From Desulfobacterales bacterium (GTDB lineage Bacteria; Desulfobacterota; Desulfobacteria; Desulfobacterales; JAHDSC01), in NCBI GenBank assembly GCA_018432925.1, contig JAHDSC010000113.1, forward strand, positions 1 through 38,870: a stretch of 38,870 nucleotides of DNA, written 5' to 3'. Below, piece by piece: positions 3,936 to 35,005 of the stretch. A program made the translations under genes and the position numbers. Under the pieces are notes generated by a model. That model made no database searches. It had not been told where the DNA came from and saw only the letters and a list, made by a program, of their open reading frames with translations. Each line of letters begins with the position of its first letter. The first letter of the stretch is position 1.

Positions 3936-5038
3936 ATCAGTTAATCGCCGTTGCCGTCAGCGGCGGAATCGATTCGCTGGTGGCGGCGCACCTGTTGAAA
4001 GAACAAGGCAGGCGCATCGTCGGAATCCACTTCATTACAGGATATGAAACCTCTCCCGATTTCCACGTTCCGAAAACAGTTTCAACGGAAGACGGCATAA
4101 AAAACCACCCGGCCGCCATCGATTCCGCGGCCGCTTCCGACCTCACCTCCTGTTTTCAGGACCGGCTCGGAATACAGGTTAAAGTCATCGATTTGAGGGC
4201 GGAATTCAAATCATCGGTTGTCGATTATTTTATACGAACCTACCGGTTCGGGAAAACGCCGAATCCATGCCTGGTCTGCAATGCATCCATAAAATTCGGG
4301 GCGCTCCTGGATGCGGCCCGCGAAATGGGCTCAACCTGTCTTGCAACAGGCCATTACGCCCGAATAACAAATGACGAACAGGGGAAATTCCATCTCCTGA
4401 AAGGTGCGGATCGGGGGAAGGATCAGTCTTATTTTCTGGGCTTTCTGACTCAAAAACAGTTGGCGCATGCTATCTTTCCTCTCGGTGAAATGACAAAAAA
4501 TCAGGTTCTACAACTGGCAAACGAAAAGAAACTCAGACCGATACGGAACCGGGAAAGTCAGGATGTCTGTTTTATCCAGGGAAAAAGCTATGGAGAGTTC
4601 CTGGCTCAGAGCTCGAAAATTGAACCACAACCCGGTATGATCGAGGATTTGAACGGAAACCCGCTGGGGACGCATCCGGGGCTTCACCTGTTTACCGTCG
4701 GCCAGCGACGGGGTATTGATTGCCCTTCCTCGGCTCCCTATTACGTGATCCGAATGGACAGAGAGAAGAACCGTCTGGTGGTTGGACGAAGGAAGGATCT
4801 TCTATCGTCTGCGTGCAGGGTGGAAAAAATAAACTGGATCAATCAGGAACCGACGTCTCCCATCAAGGTCCATACAAAAGTGAGATATCGAAATGAAGCC
4901 GTTGAGTCCGTACTTTTTCCGATCGATGGGGAAACCGTGACGGTCCGCTTTCAAAATCCTCAAATGGCCGTCACTCCCGGTCAGGGGGCCATGTTTTATA
5001 AAGAGGATGAGCTTCTTGGCGGCGGATGGATCGAGTAG
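3932..5038 (+). CDS. mnmA: tRNA-specific 2-thiouridylase MnmA
   Basis: Adenylates and thiolates C2 of U34 in tRNA-Glu, -Gln and -Lys. The 368-residue product has the PP-loop SGGIDS (10-15), an NPCLVCNASIKFG segment with Cys113 and Cys116, and Cys213 in SQDVCFIQGKSY, followed by the usual C-terminal beta-barrel regions. Start at 3932 is set by the ATGA overlap with the ferredoxin gene and by the family N-terminus; the frame opens further upstream at 3851 but only inside the ferredoxin gene. Many MnmA proteins, including the Escherichia coli one, have Asp at the position of Cys113 (DxxC). Here the motif is CxxC, giving three cysteines, the set associated with 4Fe-4S-dependent tRNA thiolases. 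Residues about 38-68 form an insertion relative to standard MnmA. Confidence 0.95.
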   Translation: MNQLIAVAVSGGIDSLVAAHLLKEQGRRIVGIHFITGYETSPDFHVPKTVSTEDGIKNHPAAIDSAAASDLTSCFQDRLGIQVKVIDLRAEFKSSVVDYFIRTYRFGKTPNPCLVCNASIKFGALLDAAREMGSTCLATGHYARITNDEQGKFHLLKGADRGKDQSYFLGFLTQKQLAHAIFPLGEMTKNQVLQLANEKKLRPIRNRESQDVCFIQGKSYGEFLAQSSKIEPQPGMIEDLNGNPLGTHPGLHLFTVGQRRGIDCPSSAPYYVIRMDREKNRLVVGRRKDLLSSACRVEKINWINQEPTSPIKVHTKVRYRNEAVESVLFPIDGETVTVRFQNPQMAVTPGQGAMFYKEDELLGGGWIE

Positions 5039-5042
5039 GAGC

Positions 5043-6374
5043 ATGGCGCTGTTTTCAATTACCACATTGGGTTGCAAAGTCAACCAGGCCGAATCGGAAT
5101 CCATCGCACAGGGTCTGCAAAAATTCGGATGGCTCCCCGCGCGGGACAACGGCAGTGCCGATCTGTGCGTGATCAACACCTGCACCGTCACCCGCAAAGC
5201 TTCGATGCAGTCCAGGCAAGCCGTCCGCCGGGCAATGCGCAACAACCCGGGTGCACGGATCGTTGTAACCGGTTGTTATGCGCAGATCGCACCGGATGAC
5301 ATCCAAACGATCCGGGGGATTCATTACATCGTCGGCAATGCGGACAAACATAAAATCCCGGAGATCATCGAATCGAGCGGGGAAAAAAGTTTCCTTTACC
5401 CGGTCTCCATCCTGCGCGACATTCACCGGGAACGCAGTTTTAATCATATTCCGGCAACGACCTTCAGTCATCGGACAAGGCCTTTTCTAAAAATTCAAGA
5501 CGGATGCGACGCCTTTTGCACCTATTGCATCGTGCCCCATGCAAGGGGCCGAAGCCGCAGCATGGCCATTGAAGAGGTAATTTCCGGCATTCATTCCCTT
5601 AAGACGGCCGGATACCGGGAAGTGGTCCTTTCCGGCGTGAACCTGGGATCCTACGGCCTTGATCTGTCTCCGCGGCCGGTTCGCCTGAAGGATCTCCTGA
5701 ATCGTATCCGGGAGTCGAAGCCGATGGACCGGGTGCGGCTCAGTTCCATAAGTCCCCTTGAACTTACGGCAGATATTATCGAACGAGTCGCGGACTCGGA
5801 CTGCTTCTGCCATCACTTCCATATCTCTTTGCAAAGCGGGGATGACCGGATCCTGAGGAGAATGCGCCGTCCTTATACCGGATCGCTGTTTGCCGAACGG
5901 GTGAGAAAAATTCATGAATGGCTCCCGGATGCCGCCATCGGGGTGGACACATTGATCGGATTCCCGGGCGAAACCGAGGAGGCCTTTAACAAGACGTATG
6001 CGATGATCGAAAAGCTGCCGGTTGCCTATCTTCATGTGTTCCCGTTTTCAGCCCGCGAGGGAACCCCCGCAAGCCGATATCCCGATCCGGTTCCGGCAAA
6101 GGTGATCAAAACGAGATGTCAAAAGATACGAAAGCTCGGCAATGCCAAAAAAAAAGAATTTTTCGGAAAATTTATCGGGAAAAAAGTTGCCGTGCTGATT
6201 GAAACGGGAATGGATCGATCCGCCGGTTTTTATCAGGGAATCACTTCGAGCTATGTTCCGGTTGTTTTAAGAGGGGAAAGCCGCCTGAAAAACACCCTGA
6301 TTACCGTTCGGATTGAAGGTTTACACGAAAACAACGCCCTGTTCGGCACCCTCTGCTCCGGGGATTCATTCTGA
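5043..6374 (+). CDS. mtaB: tRNA (N6-threonylcarbamoyladenosine(37)-C2) methylthiotransferase MtaB
   Basis: Radical SAM methylthiotransferase converting t6A37 to ms2t6A37 in tRNAs. The 443-residue product has the N-terminal UPF0004 cluster cysteines Cys11 (TLGCKVNQ), Cys47 (INTCTVT) and Cys78 (VTGCYAQ), the radical SAM motif CDAFCTYC (Cys155, 159, 162) and a C-terminal TRAM-like region. TLGCKVNQ with the short C-terminus points to MtaB rather than MiaB or RimO. ATG at 5043 fits the family N-terminus. It lies four bases after the mnmA stop, with AGGAG overlapping that stop, a tight spacing; an in-frame ATG at 5007 inside mnmA is the alternative. It is the third gene of the operon, so both tRNA sulfur modifications are transcribed with a ferredoxin. 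Confidence 0.93.
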   Translation: MALFSITTLGCKVNQAESESIAQGLQKFGWLPARDNGSADLCVINTCTVTRKASMQSRQAVRRAMRNNPGARIVVTGCYAQIAPDDIQTIRGIHYIVGNADKHKIPEIIESSGEKSFLYPVSILRDIHRERSFNHIPATTFSHRTRPFLKIQDGCDAFCTYCIVPHARGRSRSMAIEEVISGIHSLKTAGYREVVLSGVNLGSYGLDLSPRPVRLKDLLNRIRESKPMDRVRLSSISPLELTADIIERVADSDCFCHHFHISLQSGDDRILRRMRRPYTGSLFAERVRKIHEWLPDAAIGVDTLIGFPGETEEAFNKTYAMIEKLPVAYLHVFPFSAREGTPASRYPDPVPAKVIKTRCQKIRKLGNAKKKEFFGKFIGKKVAVLIETGMDRSAGFYQGITSSYVPVVLRGESRLKNTLITVRIEGLHENNALFGTLCSGDSF

Positions 6375-11524: not shown

Positions 11525-12517
11525 ATGGAAAAAAACCCATCTGAACCCGACCGGGGGGATAAGACCCATCCTTACCCCATATTGGTTGCCGAAGACGATC
11601 TGGTTACCCGGAAGCTTCTGGAAAAAATCCTGACAAAAGCGGGCTATGAAGTCGTGTCCGCGGAAAACGGCGGGAAAGCCCTTGCCCTTTTCGAAAGCAG
11701 GTTTTTCCCGATGGTCCTTACGGACTGGATCATGCCGGAAATGAATGGTCCGGAATTGTGCCGTGCCATTCGGAAACGCGTTACTCCGGGTTATGTCTTT
11801 ATCGTGCTTTTATCCGTCAAGGATTCAAAATACGATACGATCGCCGGACTGGAATCCGGAGCCGATGATTACTTGACCAAGCCTTTTAACCATTGCGAGT
11901 TGATCGCCCGCCTCAAAACCGGCATTCGCATCCTTGAATTGGAAGGATCTCTGAGAAAGGCGAATGAGGAAATCCGGACCTTGTCCATAACCGATCCTCT
12001 TACCGGATGTTATAATCGGACCTATCTTAACGAAAGGATGCTCATGGAACTGAACCGGGCAAAAAGATATAGGCATCCGCTTTCCATGATTTTATGCGAT
12101 ATCGATCATTTCAAGAAAATAAACGACACTTACGGTCATCAGGCCGGAGATCATGTCCTGAAAGAATTTGCCGGTTTGCTCTTAAGATCCATCCGCAATA
12201 CGGTGGATTGGATCGTCCGATATGGAGGCGAGGAATTTCTGATCATACTCCCGGAGTCCGATTGGATCGGCGCCTCGAATTTGGCCGAACGTTTGCGCCG
12301 AATCGTTTCCGAGAAAGTGATCCATATAGAAAAGACCGAAATCCGACTTACAGCCAGTTTCGGTGTAACGGGTTTCCATTCGATCCCGAGGGATGCGGAA
12401 ATCCCGATGGACGCCATCATCAACCAGGCCGACCGGCACCTTTACCTGGCCAAACAGTGCGGGAGAAATATCGTAAAATCCGGAGCTCCGGAGGAATGGG
12501 CGGATTCGAAACGATAA
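11525..12517 (+). CDS. Response regulator diguanylate cyclase (REC-GGDEF)
   Basis: Makes cyclic-di-GMP from two GTP under control of a phosphorylated receiver, PleD/WspR style. The 330-residue product has a receiver (AEDDLVTRKLL, phosphoacceptor Asp67, conserved Lys in LTKPF) and a GGDEF domain from about residue 158, with DPLTGCYNR, DIDHFKKINDTYGH and the active site GGEEF at 234-238. The product-inhibition site normally seen as RxxD just before the active site reads NTVD here, so feedback inhibition may be weak. ATG at 11525 is preceded by an in-frame TTG at 11522. Last gene of the HDOD-kinase-Hpt operon, giving that relay a second-messenger output. Confidence 0.93.
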   Translation: MEKNPSEPDRGDKTHPYPILVAEDDLVTRKLLEKILTKAGYEVVSAENGGKALALFESRFFPMVLTDWIMPEMNGPELCRAIRKRVTPGYVFIVLLSVKDSKYDTIAGLESGADDYLTKPFNHCELIARLKTGIRILELEGSLRKANEEIRTLSITDPLTGCYNRTYLNERMLMELNRAKRYRHPLSMILCDIDHFKKINDTYGHQAGDHVLKEFAGLLLRSIRNTVDWIVRYGGEEFLIILPESDWIGASNLAERLRRIVSEKVIHIEKTEIRLTASFGVTGFHSIPRDAEIPMDAIINQADRHLYLAKQCGRNIVKSGAPEEWADSKR

Positions 12518-29479: not shown

Positions 29480-30337
29480 TCATTCTTCCACAAGAGTTTT
29501 TCGATGTCGTAAATAGGCATCCCGAAAGGCTTCATATGGTTCGATGGCGGCTTCCTTGAAATCCTCGTAATCCCCGATGCGAAAGGAGGTAGCGTTTACC
29601 GTCTGGTAAGCCCGGATCGCCAAAGCCGCTTCCGTGGGACGGATATAAAAGGTTGGGCGTAAAAATCCATCCCCGACCCATCCCACGGTATCACGCAGGG
29701 TGGAAAGCCCCAGAAAAGGCCATACAATGTAGACGCCGTTATCGATTCCATAAGAGCCGAGAGTCTGCCCCAAATCTTCCTCGCTTGGCTCCATTTGGGG
29801 GAAACTCGTGCTTGCGGGGTCTGCCAAGCCCAGGACACCGACCGTGCTGTTGATGAAAAATCTTGAAAATTCCGCCCAGGCCCCACCCCACTTTCCCTGC
29901 AGAAGTGAATTTGCCACCCGGATGGGGGCGGCAAGATTGTTAAAGAAATTTTTTACACCCACCCGGATATCTTCCGGTATAACAAATCGATACCCCTGTG
30001 TCACCGGTTTTAGTACCCAGAAATAAAACTTGTCATTGAAATGAAACATGGCCCGGTTCCATGGTTTCAGCGGATCCGCTACCTGCACGGTCTCTTCTTC
30101 CGCCTCTTCTTCCAAAAAATCAAGATCTTCATTGAAAAAATCTTCCTCAATTTCCCCGGAATTTGAAGGGGGCCGAACCGCTTCCGCCAAAATCAATTTC
30201 CGGTCCGTTTGGAAATGCCGTTCCGCGGTCTCGGAAAAGGAGCCTGCAACCGATTCGTTTTCGCAGCAAACCGAAAGAACAGCCAAAAGCATTACAATCC
30301 GGGAGAAGATTTTCACAGAATTTTTCCTTGTTCTCAT
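29480..30337 (-). CDS. mlaA: MlaA (VacJ) family outer-membrane lipid asymmetry protein
   Basis: Outer-membrane component of the Mla pathway, which removes phospholipid from the outer leaflet and hands it to MlaC. The 285-residue product has a hydrophobic signal (about residues 10-25), a very acidic segment around 55-80 and the MlaA domain beginning DPLKPWNRAMFHFND, with FFNNLAAPIRV and SFPQMEPSEEDLGQTLG. Cys residues at the end of the signal do not make a classical lipobox. ATG at 30337 is chosen over a GTG at 30373; AAGGGA lies very close to it. Last gene of the mla operon, about 100 bases after mlaC. Confidence 0.92.
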   Translation of the reverse strand: MRTRKNSVKIFSRIVMLLAVLSVCCENESVAGSFSETAERHFQTDRKLILAEAVRPPSNSGEIEEDFFNEDLDFLEEEAEEETVQVADPLKPWNRAMFHFNDKFYFWVLKPVTQGYRFVIPEDIRVGVKNFFNNLAAPIRVANSLLQGKWGGAWAEFSRFFINSTVGVLGLADPASTSFPQMEPSEEDLGQTLGSYGIDNGVYIVWPFLGLSTLRDTVGWVGDGFLRPTFYIRPTEAALAIRAYQTVNATSFRIGDYEDFKEAAIEPYEAFRDAYLRHRKTLVEE

Positions 30338-30436
30338 GGTCCCTTGGCCAACGCGGTGCCGCTTGTTTTCCACCCGGAAGGTCTCAAGCGGAGTGCAGAA
30401 CCGTCTTTAAAATCGCACCCGCTTTTTCCCGTTGTT

Positions 30437-31039
30437 TTACGGTTGATTCTTGTTCCTCAGTCGTTCGATCAACTGAGCGGGGGACTCTTTTGAAAGGGTT
30501 TGATTGAACTGGGTGCGGTAGTTTTGTACAAGACTGACCCCTTCGATATTCACATCATAGATCTTCCATCCGTCGTTATTTTTTAACATGCTGTAGTTCA
30601 TCGGAATTTCAGCGGTTTTCCTGATTACCGTGGTTTTAACCAGGGCCTTGGAATCCGAAACCATTTCCTGACCGACATATACAACTTTTTCGTCTTGGAA
30701 CTCACCCTGCAACTTGTCAATGTAAATTTCGCCCAGAAAGTCACCGAAAACCTCAGTAAATTCCTTTCTCTCCTTCGGCGTAAAAACCAGCCAGTTCCGA
30801 GCCAGAGAGCGTTTGGAAATCTCCAGAAAATCGAAATGGGTTCGGATAACATCCCATATCTTCTCCCGCTGCAACTTCTTCTTTGCTTCGTCCCGGTACA
30901 AAGGGTCTCTCAGAATTTCTATCACCTTGTCGATCGGTTGCTTGAGTTCATCCAGCGGCTCCTTTCCGGAGGCCGGGGATGCCGTACCGATCCAAACCAT
31001 GACCATCGCAACGATAACCGGTTTAAAGAATGTATCCAT
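30437..31039 (-). CDS. mlaC: MlaC/Ttg2D family periplasmic phospholipid-binding protein
   Basis: Periplasmic carrier that shuttles phospholipid between MlaA and the MlaFED complex. The 200-residue product has a signal peptide ending about residue 25 (TASPASGKE) and the Ttg2 fold, with PLYRDEAKK, ARNWLVFTPKERKEF, LVKTTVIR and the DGWKIYDVNIEGVSLVQNYR signature. ATG at 31039 has GGGA seven bases upstream; an in-frame start at 31087 would overlap mlaD and add a non-signal tail. Lies 28 bases after mlaD. Confidence 0.92.
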   Translation of the reverse strand: MDTFFKPVIVAMVMVWIGTASPASGKEPLDELKQPIDKVIEILRDPLYRDEAKKKLQREKIWDVIRTHFDFLEISKRSLARNWLVFTPKERKEFTEVFGDFLGEIYIDKLQGEFQDEKVVYVGQEMVSDSKALVKTTVIRKTAEIPMNYSMLKNNDGWKIYDVNIEGVSLVQNYRTQFNQTLSKESPAQLIERLRNKNQP

Positions 31040-31067
31040 AAAAAATCCCTGTCGAAGCGCTGTTCGG

Positions 31068-31514
31068 TTAAACCTTGCCGAAGACATATTTTCTGATCAG
31101 ATCCTCCAGGTCCAGCGCCGATTCCGTCTCTATAATCTGATCCCCGGGTTTGAGAATCTGATCGGAACCTCCCGGGGAAAGGCTCAAATATTTATCACCG
31201 ATCAGCCCCGATGTCTTAATGGAGGCAATCACGTCATCGGTCAAGACCACACCCTTTTTTATCTTCAACCGGACGACCGCCACCTGCCGTTGCGGGTCTA
31301 AGGTGATCGAATCAACTTTTCCGATCTCAACACCCGCCATTTCCACCTGCGTTCCATCCCTGAGGCCCGCCACCGAATCGAACCGCGCAAAAAGAGGATA
31401 ATATTTATCCCCAAGCCATTCCATCTTCCCAAGCTGGATGGTGAGGTATCCCACACACGCAATTCCAATAAGCACAAAGATTCCGACCGCCGTTTCAATC
31501 CACGATCTTTTCAT
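31068..31514 (-). CDS. mlaD: MlaD (MCE domain) phospholipid transport protein
   Basis: Membrane-anchored MCE-domain subunit that forms a hexameric ring on the periplasmic face of the transporter. The 148-residue product has one membrane helix (about 8-28, VGIFVLIGIACVGYLTIQL) and one MCE domain, with FDSVAGLRDGTQVEMAGVEIG and GLIGDKYLSLSPG. AGGAG lies just before the ATG. Gene order E-F-D-C-A and short gaps show one operon. Confidence 0.94.
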   Translation of the reverse strand: MKRSWIETAVGIFVLIGIACVGYLTIQLGKMEWLGDKYYPLFARFDSVAGLRDGTQVEMAGVEIGKVDSITLDPQRQVAVVRLKIKKGVVLTDDVIASIKTSGLIGDKYLSLSPGGSDQILKPGDQIIETESALDLEDLIRKYVFGKV

Positions 31515-31529
31515 ATCTCCTCACATATT

Positions 31530-32741
31530 TCAGCATACCCGGAATTCGGACAACTGGTTCTGACTCAATTCAGCATTTGCAATAAGATCCTCTATATGAT
31601 TTTCCTTTTTCACTTCGGCGAAACCGGCGCTGATTGAAAGACAAAACCCCGGGGCGGGGCCTATTCCCATTGTTTCGTTTTGGGCCAATTCATCGGACAA
31701 CTTGCCGCAGAACATCCGGGCCTGTTCCAGGTTGGTATGAGAAAGAAAAATCAGTATCTTGTTCAAACCATACCGGGAGCAGGTATCGGTAACACGCATA
31801 TACTGCTTTACCTTTTCCGCTAAATTTTTAAGCACGATCTGCCCTTTTACATGGCCTATTTTTAGGTTGATTTCGTCCATGTTCCGCACGGTCAGAAGAA
31901 TCAGGGAAAAAGCGATTCGGAACCGCCTCAGCCGATCCATTTCTTCCTTAAACCTTTCTTCTCCCATTGGCCTGGGAACCATGCCGGTCAGACCGTCGCG
32001 CCTGGTTTCAAGCCCTTGAATAAACTCCCTTATCACCGGATCCGTAGTCTGCTGAATCTCTTTCGGCGTTCCTTGAAAAATGATGCGGCCTTCATCCAGC
32101 ATGGCAATTCGTTGAGAAATATAAAAGATATCCGGTAATTCATGGCTCACCGCTATGCCTGTGAATCCGAATCGCTTCTGGTAGTCGGAAATCATGCTGT
32201 GCACAGCATTCTTTCGGATCGGATCAAGTCCTGTGGTTGGCTCGTCGAATAAAACAATTTCCGGATCCGTGACCAGGGCTCTGGCCAGAGCCACTCTTTT
32301 TTTCATTCCCCCGGAAAGCTGTGAAGGATACTTGTCGTCGATGTCCTGCAGATCCAGATCGCTCATCTTGTTATGAACGCGTTCTCGAATTTCCGCGTCT
32401 TTCAATTCTGTTTTTTCCTTCAGCGGAAGGGCGATATTTTCAAAAACGGTCATTGAGTCGAAAAGAGCGGTGCCCTGAAACATATAACTGATCTTTTTTT
32501 TAAATGCGCGTTTTTCGGCCTTTTTTATTTCGGAAAGAGGTCGGCCTTCAAACAGGATTTCTCCGGAATCAGGCAGAATCAGTCCAATGATATGCTTAAG
32601 CAGCACGCTTTTTCCCCCACCGCTCTTTCCGATAATGGTGGTGATCTCTCCCCGGTAAATAAGGAGATCAACGCCGTTTAGAACCTGGTTCGCGCCGAAA
32701 CGCTTATAAACCTTTTTAAATTCAATCAGCGGTGCATTCAT
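31530..32741 (-). CDS. mlaF: MlaF-type ABC ATPase fused to a degenerate GGDEF domain
   Basis: ATPase subunit of the MlaFEDB-type phospholipid transporter. Residues 1-240 are a normal ABC ATPase: Walker A GKSGGGKS (38-45), signature LSGGM (142-146), Walker B IVLFDEP (162-168) and the switch His200. Ordinary MlaF proteins end near residue 270; this one runs to 403. Residues about 249-400 resemble a GGDEF domain (DGLTGM, EERFKEEMDRLRRF, FSLILLTVRNMDEIN, GHVKG, SRYG) but the active-site motif is GLNKI (325-329) and metal-binding acids are missing, so it cannot be a cyclase. It may bind a nucleotide or substitute for the absent MlaB regulator; both are inferences. Confidence 0.93.
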   Translation of the reverse strand: MNAPLIEFKKVYKRFGANQVLNGVDLLIYRGEITTIIGKSGGGKSVLLKHIIGLILPDSGEILFEGRPLSEIKKAEKRAFKKKISYMFQGTALFDSMTVFENIALPLKEKTELKDAEIRERVHNKMSDLDLQDIDDKYPSQLSGGMKKRVALARALVTDPEIVLFDEPTTGLDPIRKNAVHSMISDYQKRFGFTGIAVSHELPDIFYISQRIAMLDEGRIIFQGTPKEIQQTTDPVIREFIQGLETRRDGLTGMVPRPMGEERFKEEMDRLRRFRIAFSLILLTVRNMDEINLKIGHVKGQIVLKNLAEKVKQYMRVTDTCSRYGLNKILIFLSHTNLEQARMFCGKLSDELAQNETMGIGPAPGFCLSISAGFAEVKKENHIEDLIANAELSQNQLSEFRVC

Positions 32742-32747
32742 GGACTG

Positions 32748-33551
32748 TTACAGCAAAAACGTTGTCAAAATATAATCGGTTATAAGAATCAGAACACAGG
32801 AAATAACCACCGCCGAGGTAGTGGCGAGGCTCACACCTCTGGCACCGAAGCCTTCGGCCCGGGTATGGGTGTAGTATCCCTGGAAACAGCATATGGTTGC
32901 AACCACGGCGGCAAAAACGATCGATTTGAGAAAACCGCCCGTAACATCTTTCATTAAAACGCTCGATTCAACCCGTGAAAAAAAAATTCCCGGATTAATC
33001 CCGAGCAGAAGCGAACCCGACAAATAACCCCCAACGATACCCACGACGTCAAAAATGGCGGTAAGAAGCGGAAAACTGATCAAAGCGGCCAGAAGACGGG
33101 GACTGAACAGGAAACGAATGGGATTGATATCCATTGTTTCCAATGCATCGATTTGTTCGGAAATCCGCATGATACCGATTTCAGCAGCCATGGCCGATCC
33201 GGCTCTCGCGGTAATCATGATGGCGGTAAGCACCGGCCCCAGCTCACGGATCAGCGAAAGTGCAACGGCGGAACCGAGCAGTCCCTCGGATCCAAACTTT
33301 ACCAGGGTGTAATATCCCTGAAGCCCCAGAACCATCCCGGTAAACGCCCCCGTCAGGCAGATCACAAAAACGGATTTCATGCCGATGAAATAAACCTGAT
33401 TGACGGTTTTAAATATCTGAAAGGGAATTGAAAAAATGAAAACAATCCCCCGGAACATGAATAAGGCAATCCGTCCTATTTCCTGGATCTGGAAAATTGT
33501 CCATCTGCCGACCGCAGATAAAAAATGGGTTGATCTGACGAATGGAACCAT
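32748..33551 (-). CDS. mlaE: MlaE family phospholipid transporter permease
   Basis: Inner-membrane permease of the Mla lipid transporter. The 267-residue product has an N-terminal interfacial helix and about five membrane helices, with the MlaE signature around GMVLGLQGYYTLVKFG, SLIRELGPVLTAIMITARAG and SAMAAEIGIMRISEQIDALE. ATG at 33551 has AGGA eight bases upstream. It is the first gene of the operon, six bases before mlaF, and lies about 80 bases downstream of a near-consensus promoter. Confidence 0.95.
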   Translation of the reverse strand: MVPFVRSTHFLSAVGRWTIFQIQEIGRIALFMFRGIVFIFSIPFQIFKTVNQVYFIGMKSVFVICLTGAFTGMVLGLQGYYTLVKFGSEGLLGSAVALSLIRELGPVLTAIMITARAGSAMAAEIGIMRISEQIDALETMDINPIRFLFSPRLLAALISFPLLTAIFDVVGIVGGYLSGSLLLGINPGIFFSRVESSVLMKDVTGGFLKSIVFAAVVATICCFQGYYTHTRAEGFGARGVSLATTSAVVISCVLILITDYILTTFLL

Positions 33552-33942: not shown

Positions 33943-34039
33943 TTTTCGGCCTCAAGGACTCTTGATCGATGTCAGGTTTACTCATTAACCACGGGAGAAT
34001 TCACTCTCTGTGCGGTTCATGATGATGGAAGGAGGCAAA

Positions 34040-35005
34040 ATGAAATTTGAAGAAGTTAAACTGGAAGAACTGCATACCGAGGAATTTATAAACCGGAAGA
34101 CGGAGGAAATTTCTTCCATGGTCGGGGACGGTTTGGCGGTCAACGCATTATCCGGCGGGGTGGATTCTTCGGTTGTCACGATGCTTGCCCACAGAGCATT
34201 GGGCGACCGGCTGAAAAGCTACTTTATTGACAGCGGATTAATGAGAGCCGGGGAACCGGAACATATCGTCGGTTTATTCAAAAAACTGGGTGTTCGTGTA
34301 GAGAACATCGATGCGAAAAAACAGTTTTTTGGCGCGCTCAAGGGTAAAACCGATCCCGAAGAAAAGCGGGAAGCCATTACACAGACCTTTTACCCGATTG
34401 TTTTTGCCCGTTTGGCAAAAAAAAGCGGTGCAACCTATGTCTTTCAGGGTACCAATTATACGGATATCGAAGAAACGGTGGCCGGGATTAAAAGACAGCA
34501 TAATATTATTGAACAGCTGGGAATTGATCCCCAAGAAGCATACGGATATAAGATCATCGAACCATTAATACAGCTCAGAAAACCCGCAATCCGGGTAATC
34601 GCGGAAGCACTTGGTTTGCCGGCTGAAATTTATAATCGACCGCCGTTTCCCGGACCCGCCTTGGCGGCCCGAGTGATCGGAGAAGTCACGCCGGAAAGGG
34701 TGAAAACCGTAAGAAAAGCGACTCAAATCGTTGAAGCACTCTTGTGCGATACCAACGCGTTTCAATACCTTGCAATTCTGCATCAGGATCGAGTGACCGG
34801 CATCCGGAACGGCAAAAGGGATTACGGTATGCAAATAGAAGTCCGATGCTGGGATAGTGAAGATGCGAAAACGGGACGTCCCACGGCGCTTCCCCATGAT
34901 ATTTTAATCCGGCTGGCGGAAAGAATCACATCGGAAGTTCCCGGAGTGGTCAGCGTTACCTATAATATTACCCCGAAACCGCCTTCTACCATAGAAGCGG
35001 TCTGA
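34040..35005 (+). CDS. GMP synthase ATP-pyrophosphatase and dimerisation domains, no glutaminase domain
   Basis: Amidates XMP to GMP after adenylation, using ammonia. The 321-residue product covers only the ATPase and C-terminal dimerisation parts of GuaA: PP-loop SGGVDSS (38-44), IDSGLMRAGEPEH, QGTNYTDIEE, PPFPGPALAARVIGE and the terminal KPPSTIEAV. The usual N-terminal class I glutaminase (about 190 residues) is absent, as in the two-subunit archaeal enzyme. No glutaminase gene adjoins, so it either uses free ammonia or a partner elsewhere. ATG at 34040 follows AAGGAGG; the in-frame ATG at 34010 is less likely. A specialised paralogue of GuaA is an alternative. Confidence 0.88.
   Translation: MKFEEVKLEELHTEEFINRKTEEISSMVGDGLAVNALSGGVDSSVVTMLAHRALGDRLKSYFIDSGLMRAGEPEHIVGLFKKLGVRVENIDAKKQFFGALKGKTDPEEKREAITQTFYPIVFARLAKKSGATYVFQGTNYTDIEETVAGIKRQHNIIEQLGIDPQEAYGYKIIEPLIQLRKPAIRVIAEALGLPAEIYNRPPFPGPALAARVIGEVTPERVKTVRKATQIVEALLCDTNAFQYLAILHQDRVTGIRNGKRDYGMQIEVRCWDSEDAKTGRPTALPHDILIRLAERITSEVPGVVSVTYNITPKPPSTIEAV

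Follow-up and report, generated by a model that had tools for sequence, protein, structure and literature searches.

An MlaF-type ABC ATPase of Desulfobacterales fused to a GGDEF domain without catalytic residues

We analyzed a contig of 38,870 nucleotides from a Desulfobacterales bacterium (GenBank JAHDSC010000113.1, assembly GCA_018432925.1), hereafter referred to as the window. It contains an mla operon in which a single gene encodes an MlaF-type ABC ATPase followed by a C-terminal domain whose sequence and predicted structure confirm a complete GGDEF fold without the catalytic residues. Our best guess is that this domain has a regulatory role.

An MlaF-type ATPase followed by a degenerate GGDEF domain

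The fusion gene (positions 31530..32741, minus strand) starts with ATG and encodes a protein of 403 amino acids with Pfam matches to ABC_tran and GGDEF. The ATPase domain comprises residues 1-243 (32013..32741, minus strand), of which residues 21-170 match ABC_tran (E 1e-36). The set of ABC ATPase motifs is complete: the Walker A motif GKSGGGKS (residues 38-45; 32607..32630), which is almost invariant in our alignment, the signature motif LSGGM (residues 142-146; 32304..32318) and the Walker B motif including the catalytic Glu167 (residues 161-167; 32241..32261; D166 and E167 invariant), all encoded on the minus strand, and the H-loop His200. MlaF is the best-scoring NCBIfam model, but the score of 196.8 lies under the cut-off of 441 of this E. 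coli-type equivalog. The top structural matches of the ATPase part are MlaF chains from solved MlaFEDB complexes (6xbd_I, Z 30.2 over 246 residues). With MlaF of E. coli, Pseudomonas and Acinetobacter (6xbd, 7cha, 7d06), the protein shares the ATPase fold, LSGGM, 35-37% identity and the operon partners mlaE, mlaD and mlaC (plus mlaA) that are expected of an MlaF ATPase. Thus, its closest known relative is MlaF, including the Met following LSGG that is typical of Mla-type ATPases (PMC7367683). This agrees with the first-pass annotation, which had read the N-terminal part as a normal MlaF-like ATPase.

The degenerate GGDEF domain spans residues 248-391 (31569..32000, minus strand) and matches the Pfam GGDEF model with an E value of 1.2e-17 and a bit score of 64.5 (cut-off 23.8). 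A GGDEF scan across the genome of the window recovered the same site (4.2e-18), and a phmmer search of this part against PDB chains matched mainly cyclases (best 3ign, 2.4e-13). Structures were predicted as single chains from 22-25 sequences. In the prediction for the isolated domain (pLDDT 76.7, pTM 0.74), the elements follow the GGDEF order and include the hairpin; each of the 50 PDB entries listed as resembling it is a GGDEF domain or contains one (best Z 16.3, 141 residues, rmsd 2.8). A fold unlike GGDEF, which would have spoken against the original idea, was thus not what the prediction gave. In the full-length model, a helix (residues 235-249) leads from the ATPase to the DxLT start of the GGDEF domain; the pTM of this model is 0.58, which makes its relative placing of the two domains unreliable.

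GGDEF domains have a conserved DxLT motif at their N-terminus, which reads DGLT here (residues 249-252; 31986..31997, minus strand; within the window's own family, D in 79% and T in 81%). Where GG[DE]EF is expected, the alignment places GLNKI (residues 325-329; 31755..31769, minus strand). Five residues before this motif, at the exact position and spacing of the c-di-GMP I-site (RxxD), lies RVTD (residues 316-319; 31785..31796, minus strand). The metal-binding Asp (284) is replaced by T, the guanine-binding Asp (301) by Q, the Lys of 'FK' (289) by D and the late Lys (391) by E, so that neither GG[DE]EF nor the metal and guanine residues of a diguanylate cyclase are present; the first-pass annotation had noted GLNKI at the place of the catalytic motif. 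The domain thus resembles the GGDEF domains of cyclases (WspR, PleD, DgcR, 3ign) in its whole fold, DxLT and RxxD, with 15-25% identity over 140-150 residues, but differs from them in lacking GG, the metal and guanine Asp and the late Lys, and in having an ABC ATPase as its partner where the cyclases have a sensor. An intact diguanylate cyclase is encoded elsewhere in the window, as had been noted, at about 11987-12469 (plus strand). We also observed a recurrent GGDDF variant (L007, own genome, C27:13139-13432; L228; L232), in which the Pfam match covers the first two thirds only and the N-terminal parts differ.

Distribution, conservation and history of the fusion

A search for other MlaF proteins with this extension, suggested at the outset, yielded 143 distinct MlaF-GGDEF fusions across Thermodesulfobacteriota. 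The same fusion in sequences from many assemblies rules out an assembly artefact or a chance match. They fall into family I, to which the window protein belongs (n=87), and family II (n=56), which are about 43% alike. Counting from listed rows, and with genes drawn from draft genomes, full-length family I relatives (51-70% identity) are present in 75 of the 194 sampled genomes of the order; family II (about 40-47% identity) raises the number of fused genomes to 83, and 34 further genomes have a close MlaF without the GGDEF domain. Several genomes contain both families, in separate operons. In a phylum-wide sample, about 50 of 395 genomes have the fusion. The named records are mostly Desulfobacterales, with one from Syntrophales, and all belong to Thermodesulfobacteriota, outside of which the search consisted of one pattern-based scan. 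We found no description of an MlaF or MCE ATPase with a GGDEF domain in the open-licence PMC literature.

None of the 143 fusions has GG at 325-326 or the catalytic acid set, and the metal Asp at 284 is present in only one; GADEF in L199 is the closest relic of the GG[DE]EF motif. Family I mostly has G(L/M)NK(I/L) at the motif position and family II mostly N-E-(I/F/Y). Because no member retains GG[DE]EF or the acid set, cyclase activity was lost at or near the origin of the fusion; the catalytic loss is old, and the domain was kept afterwards. The GGDEF-derived domain is under purifying selection: its dN/dS is mostly 0.04-0.35 in informative close pairs, versus about 0.02-0.18 for the ATPase part, and the values of 0.47-0.69 for three pairs with dS near 0.1 or below are unreliable. 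Common to both families are T/S284, Q301 (86% in family I, 73% in family II), N/D327 and A372-G373, to which family I adds F278 (98%), D319 (99%), C321 (94%), R323 (93%) and K/R328 (87%). A conserved set shared by two families that are only about 43% alike points to a new constrained function and not to decay. A functionless relic is ruled out, as every member has an open frame, dN/dS stays far below 1 and new residues are conserved. Cysteines are also present in the domain at positions 321, 345, 367 and 403 (window 31533-32009), and all four occur together in 39 of the 87 family I members.

A tree built on the ATPase part alone (180 rows, with low deep support) places all fusions within one group of 170 rows, in which domain-free sequences are nested. 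Five domain-free genomes have a congeneric fused member as their neighbour (branch 99), and a further one is placed with two fused genomes (branch 100). At least 6 changes between the fused and domain-free states follow from the well-supported branches, and the best tree requires 18. In two domain-free proteins (L206, L220), the C-terminus is what is left of a truncated DxLT start. One old gain followed by several losses is the simplest reading of these sequences, and it fits the tree. In the ATPase part, identity to the domain-free relatives reaches 74%. Since the domain was apparently lost several times without an obvious replacement, it would not be essential for the transporter. We also attempted to map a docking site through ATPase positions freed in domain-loss relatives; the raw differences in conservation between fused and domain-loss sequences at positions 182, 179, 230 and 245 had no support after allowing for relatedness, and this approach was abandoned.

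The mla operon and the absence of mlaB

The operon is located on the minus strand (33551-29480) in the order mlaE-mlaF-mlaD-mlaC-mlaA, with, in this order, a 6-base gap, a 15-base gap, a 20-base overlap and a 63-base gap between the genes. It encodes the permease MlaE (32748..33551; 267 aa, without a STAS domain; Pfam MlaE 1.9e-79), an MlaD of the short single-MCE type (31068..31514; TIGR04430 above cut-off), MlaC (30437..31087; Pfam MlaC 7.8e-44) and MlaA (29480..30373; Pfam MlaA 4.6e-69), all on the minus strand. This order is kept in relatives with or without the GGDEF domain. Upstream and divergent lies a gene (34010-35005, plus strand) for what reads as the synthetase part of a GMP synthase-like protein without the glutaminase part. 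A second MlaE-type permease is encoded at a separate locus of the same genome (L163; C192:5489-6106). In several relatives, a gene for a cyclic-nucleotide-binding-type protein lies at the upstream end of the mla operon or close to it (L042:740-1177, L043:4296-4805, L044:2840-3349, L124:5892-6569, L128:2289-2951 and L129:5603-6265).

The genome of the window (97.8% complete) gave no match to the mlaB profile NF033618. Its sole STAS protein is RsbV-like and encoded on another contig, adjoining an RsbW-like kinase and a cyclic-nucleotide-binding protein; this locus is an anti-anti-sigma-type unit. None of 52 genomes, whether fused, domain-free or outgroup, passed the mlaB cut-off, which one control genome did (the control list includes E. 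coli), and 72 small open reading frames in or beside mla operons contained no STAS match that would indicate a hidden MlaB. The E. coli-type subtype of MlaF, with its clasping tail and MlaB, is excluded for the window protein, which leaves its membership of MlaF unaffected. A normal mlaB and an MlaB-binding tail, which would have spoken against the first-pass annotation, were not found: mlaB is missing from the genome and the GGDEF domain occupies the position of the E. coli-type tail.

The further suggestion that the domain replaces MlaB is not supported. Docked on the helical subdomain of the ATPase where MlaB binds in E. coli, it would stabilise MlaF, and the lack of mlaB in a genome whose lone STAS protein is RsbV-like and encoded elsewhere fits such a role. 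However, mlaB is missing not only from the fused genomes but likewise from the domain-loss relatives and the never-fused outgroup operons, so the absence of mlaB does not track the domain. MlaB is moreover mostly confined to Proteobacteria and rare outside them (survey in PMC10665443), and the strongest differences between fused and domain-loss ATPases lie outside the helical subdomain. In addition, mlaF is accompanied at four fused loci by genes for an RsbW-like kinase and an RsbV-like STAS protein. We consider replacement of MlaB quite improbable. The minimal MlaEFD system of Veillonella parvula also lacks MlaB, and its MlaF works without it (PMC10665443); V. parvula differs in having a long MlaD, a short MlaF tail and neither MlaA nor MlaC.

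The four loci form a variant operon: mlaF-GGDEF, a gene for an RsbW-like kinase (HATPase_c_2; L108:3585-4160, L110:5208-5795, L114:3601-4023, L118:3714-4145), mlaE, mlaD and mlaA, followed just downstream by a convergent RsbV-like STAS gene (L108:703-1128, L110:8020-8361, L114:655-1203, L118:6617-6970). This organization suggests a phosphorylation partner switch acting on the lipid transporter, an idea raised earlier for E. coli MlaB (PMC7367683). The same kinase (44% identical) is encoded directly downstream of another mlaF-GGDEF gene (L164:37-453), on a 12 kb contig that also contains a second fusion, of family II, at 4731-6062.

Possible roles of the GGDEF-derived domain

GGDEF domains commonly act as dimers, as in the cyclases. 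MetN, MalK and ModC resemble the fusion in that a small folded domain, able to set ATPase pairing, immediately follows the ATPase; these domains have other folds, ACT-like and TOBE-like. A GGDEF-type C-terminal regulatory domain on an ABC ATPase was not found in open-licence PMC papers. E. coli MlaF, which needs MlaB, has a 25-residue extended C-terminal tail where the fusion, without mlaB, has a GGDEF-type domain of 150 residues. This tail clasps the neighbouring subunit and its removal abolishes function, which is largely restored by a GCN4 dimerisation domain in its place; in other ABC ATPases, regulatory domains at the C-terminus associate with each other beneath the ATPase (PMC7367683).

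Because the position of the tail is taken by a fold that is dimeric in cyclases, we propose, by analogy, that the pseudo-GGDEF domain serves as a C-terminal dimerisation and regulatory domain of the MlaEFD ATPase in place of the 'handshake' of E. coli MlaF, a proposal to which we give somewhat less than an even chance. The repeated loss of the domain and the lack of support for the differing ATPase positions count against this proposal. On this view, the GGDEF fold gave up cyclase catalysis at about the time it was fused, and was kept as a regulatory or pairing part. Located directly after the last ATPase helix, where the neighbour-clasping tail would be, the two domains of an MlaF dimer would meet and favour or limit ATPase dimerisation, and their pairing may set the assembly or the rate of the transporter. 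If a ligand is sensed, the remodelled old active site (T/S284, Q301, N327) would be the likeliest pocket.

It is possible, though doubtful, that the pseudo-GGDEF domain senses a ligand and in much of the phylum links a nucleotide second messenger, or some other signal from the cytoplasm, directly to the ATPase driving phospholipid movement between the two membranes, which would provide an MlaB-independent, post-translational control of outer-membrane lipid asymmetry. GTP, one of the signals originally envisaged, is unlikely to be bound in the classical way, since the fusions throughout have other residues at the guanine, metal and phosphate positions. The other, c-di-GMP, would act as in PelD, whose degenerate GGDEF domain is a c-di-GMP receptor acting on its own partner and, like the present one, is catalytically dead and kept as a regulatory part: binding at the retained I-site would change ATPase activity. 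This may apply to the window protein, in which RVTD is at the exact I-site position and whose genome encodes active-type cyclases, and RxxD is present in 58 of the 87 family I members. However, in a third of family I another residue, mostly Y, N or S, takes the place of R316, and family II has G for both RxxD residues (0 of 56), so c-di-GMP sensing cannot be the general role; besides the different host protein, this lack of conservation sets the fusions apart from PelD. In the two sampled genomes devoid of GGDEF proteins (G050, G098), MlaF is domain-free, but domain-free genomes are often rich in GGDEF proteins, and with 0 to 26 per genome these counts neither separate fused from domain-free genomes nor link domain loss to c-di-GMP capacity. 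Genome G558, moreover, retains the fusion with only GGDDF and GGGDF variants as its other GGDEF matches. Altogether, a c-di-GMP receptor is an unlikely explanation.

Also unlikely is a sensor of another small molecule, a guanosine nucleotide such as (p)ppGpp or a metabolite, in the remodelled active-site cleft. The polar set T/S284, Q301 and N327 in the old active site of both families, joined by K/R328 in 87% of family I, is consistent with such a pocket, and structures of PleD, a GGDEF protein, in complex with ppGpp and pppGpp are available (9g85 and 9g86, by their titles), but the known GTP residues (the metal and guanine Asp and, in family I, the late Lys) are replaced almost everywhere. 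A redox or metal switch in these anaerobes through C321, C345, C367 and C402/403 seems very improbable. These cysteines are well conserved (in family I, C321 94%, C345 82% and C367 74%; in family II, C402 94% and C367 71%). C367 tends to occur together with the C-terminal Cys in family I (Fisher p 1e-8), and the strands that bear these two residues are expected to lie side by side, but in this raw test relatedness may explain the signal, and we discarded co-variation as independent support. C321 and C345 occupy positions that are normally hydrophobic or small, and may for that reason be core packing.

How Mla transporters are controlled from inside the cell is an unsettled question even in E. 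coli. The old, conserved domain borne by the ATPase across a phylum, together with the domain-free relatives, offers a clean natural comparison of the effect of the domain. GGDEF-derived folds would extend the few known kinds of regulatory domain on ABC ATPases. In sulfate reducers and related bacteria, the ATPase that powers lipid transport towards the outer membrane bears a domain derived from a signalling enzyme, long without catalysis and kept probably as a regulatory or pairing part.
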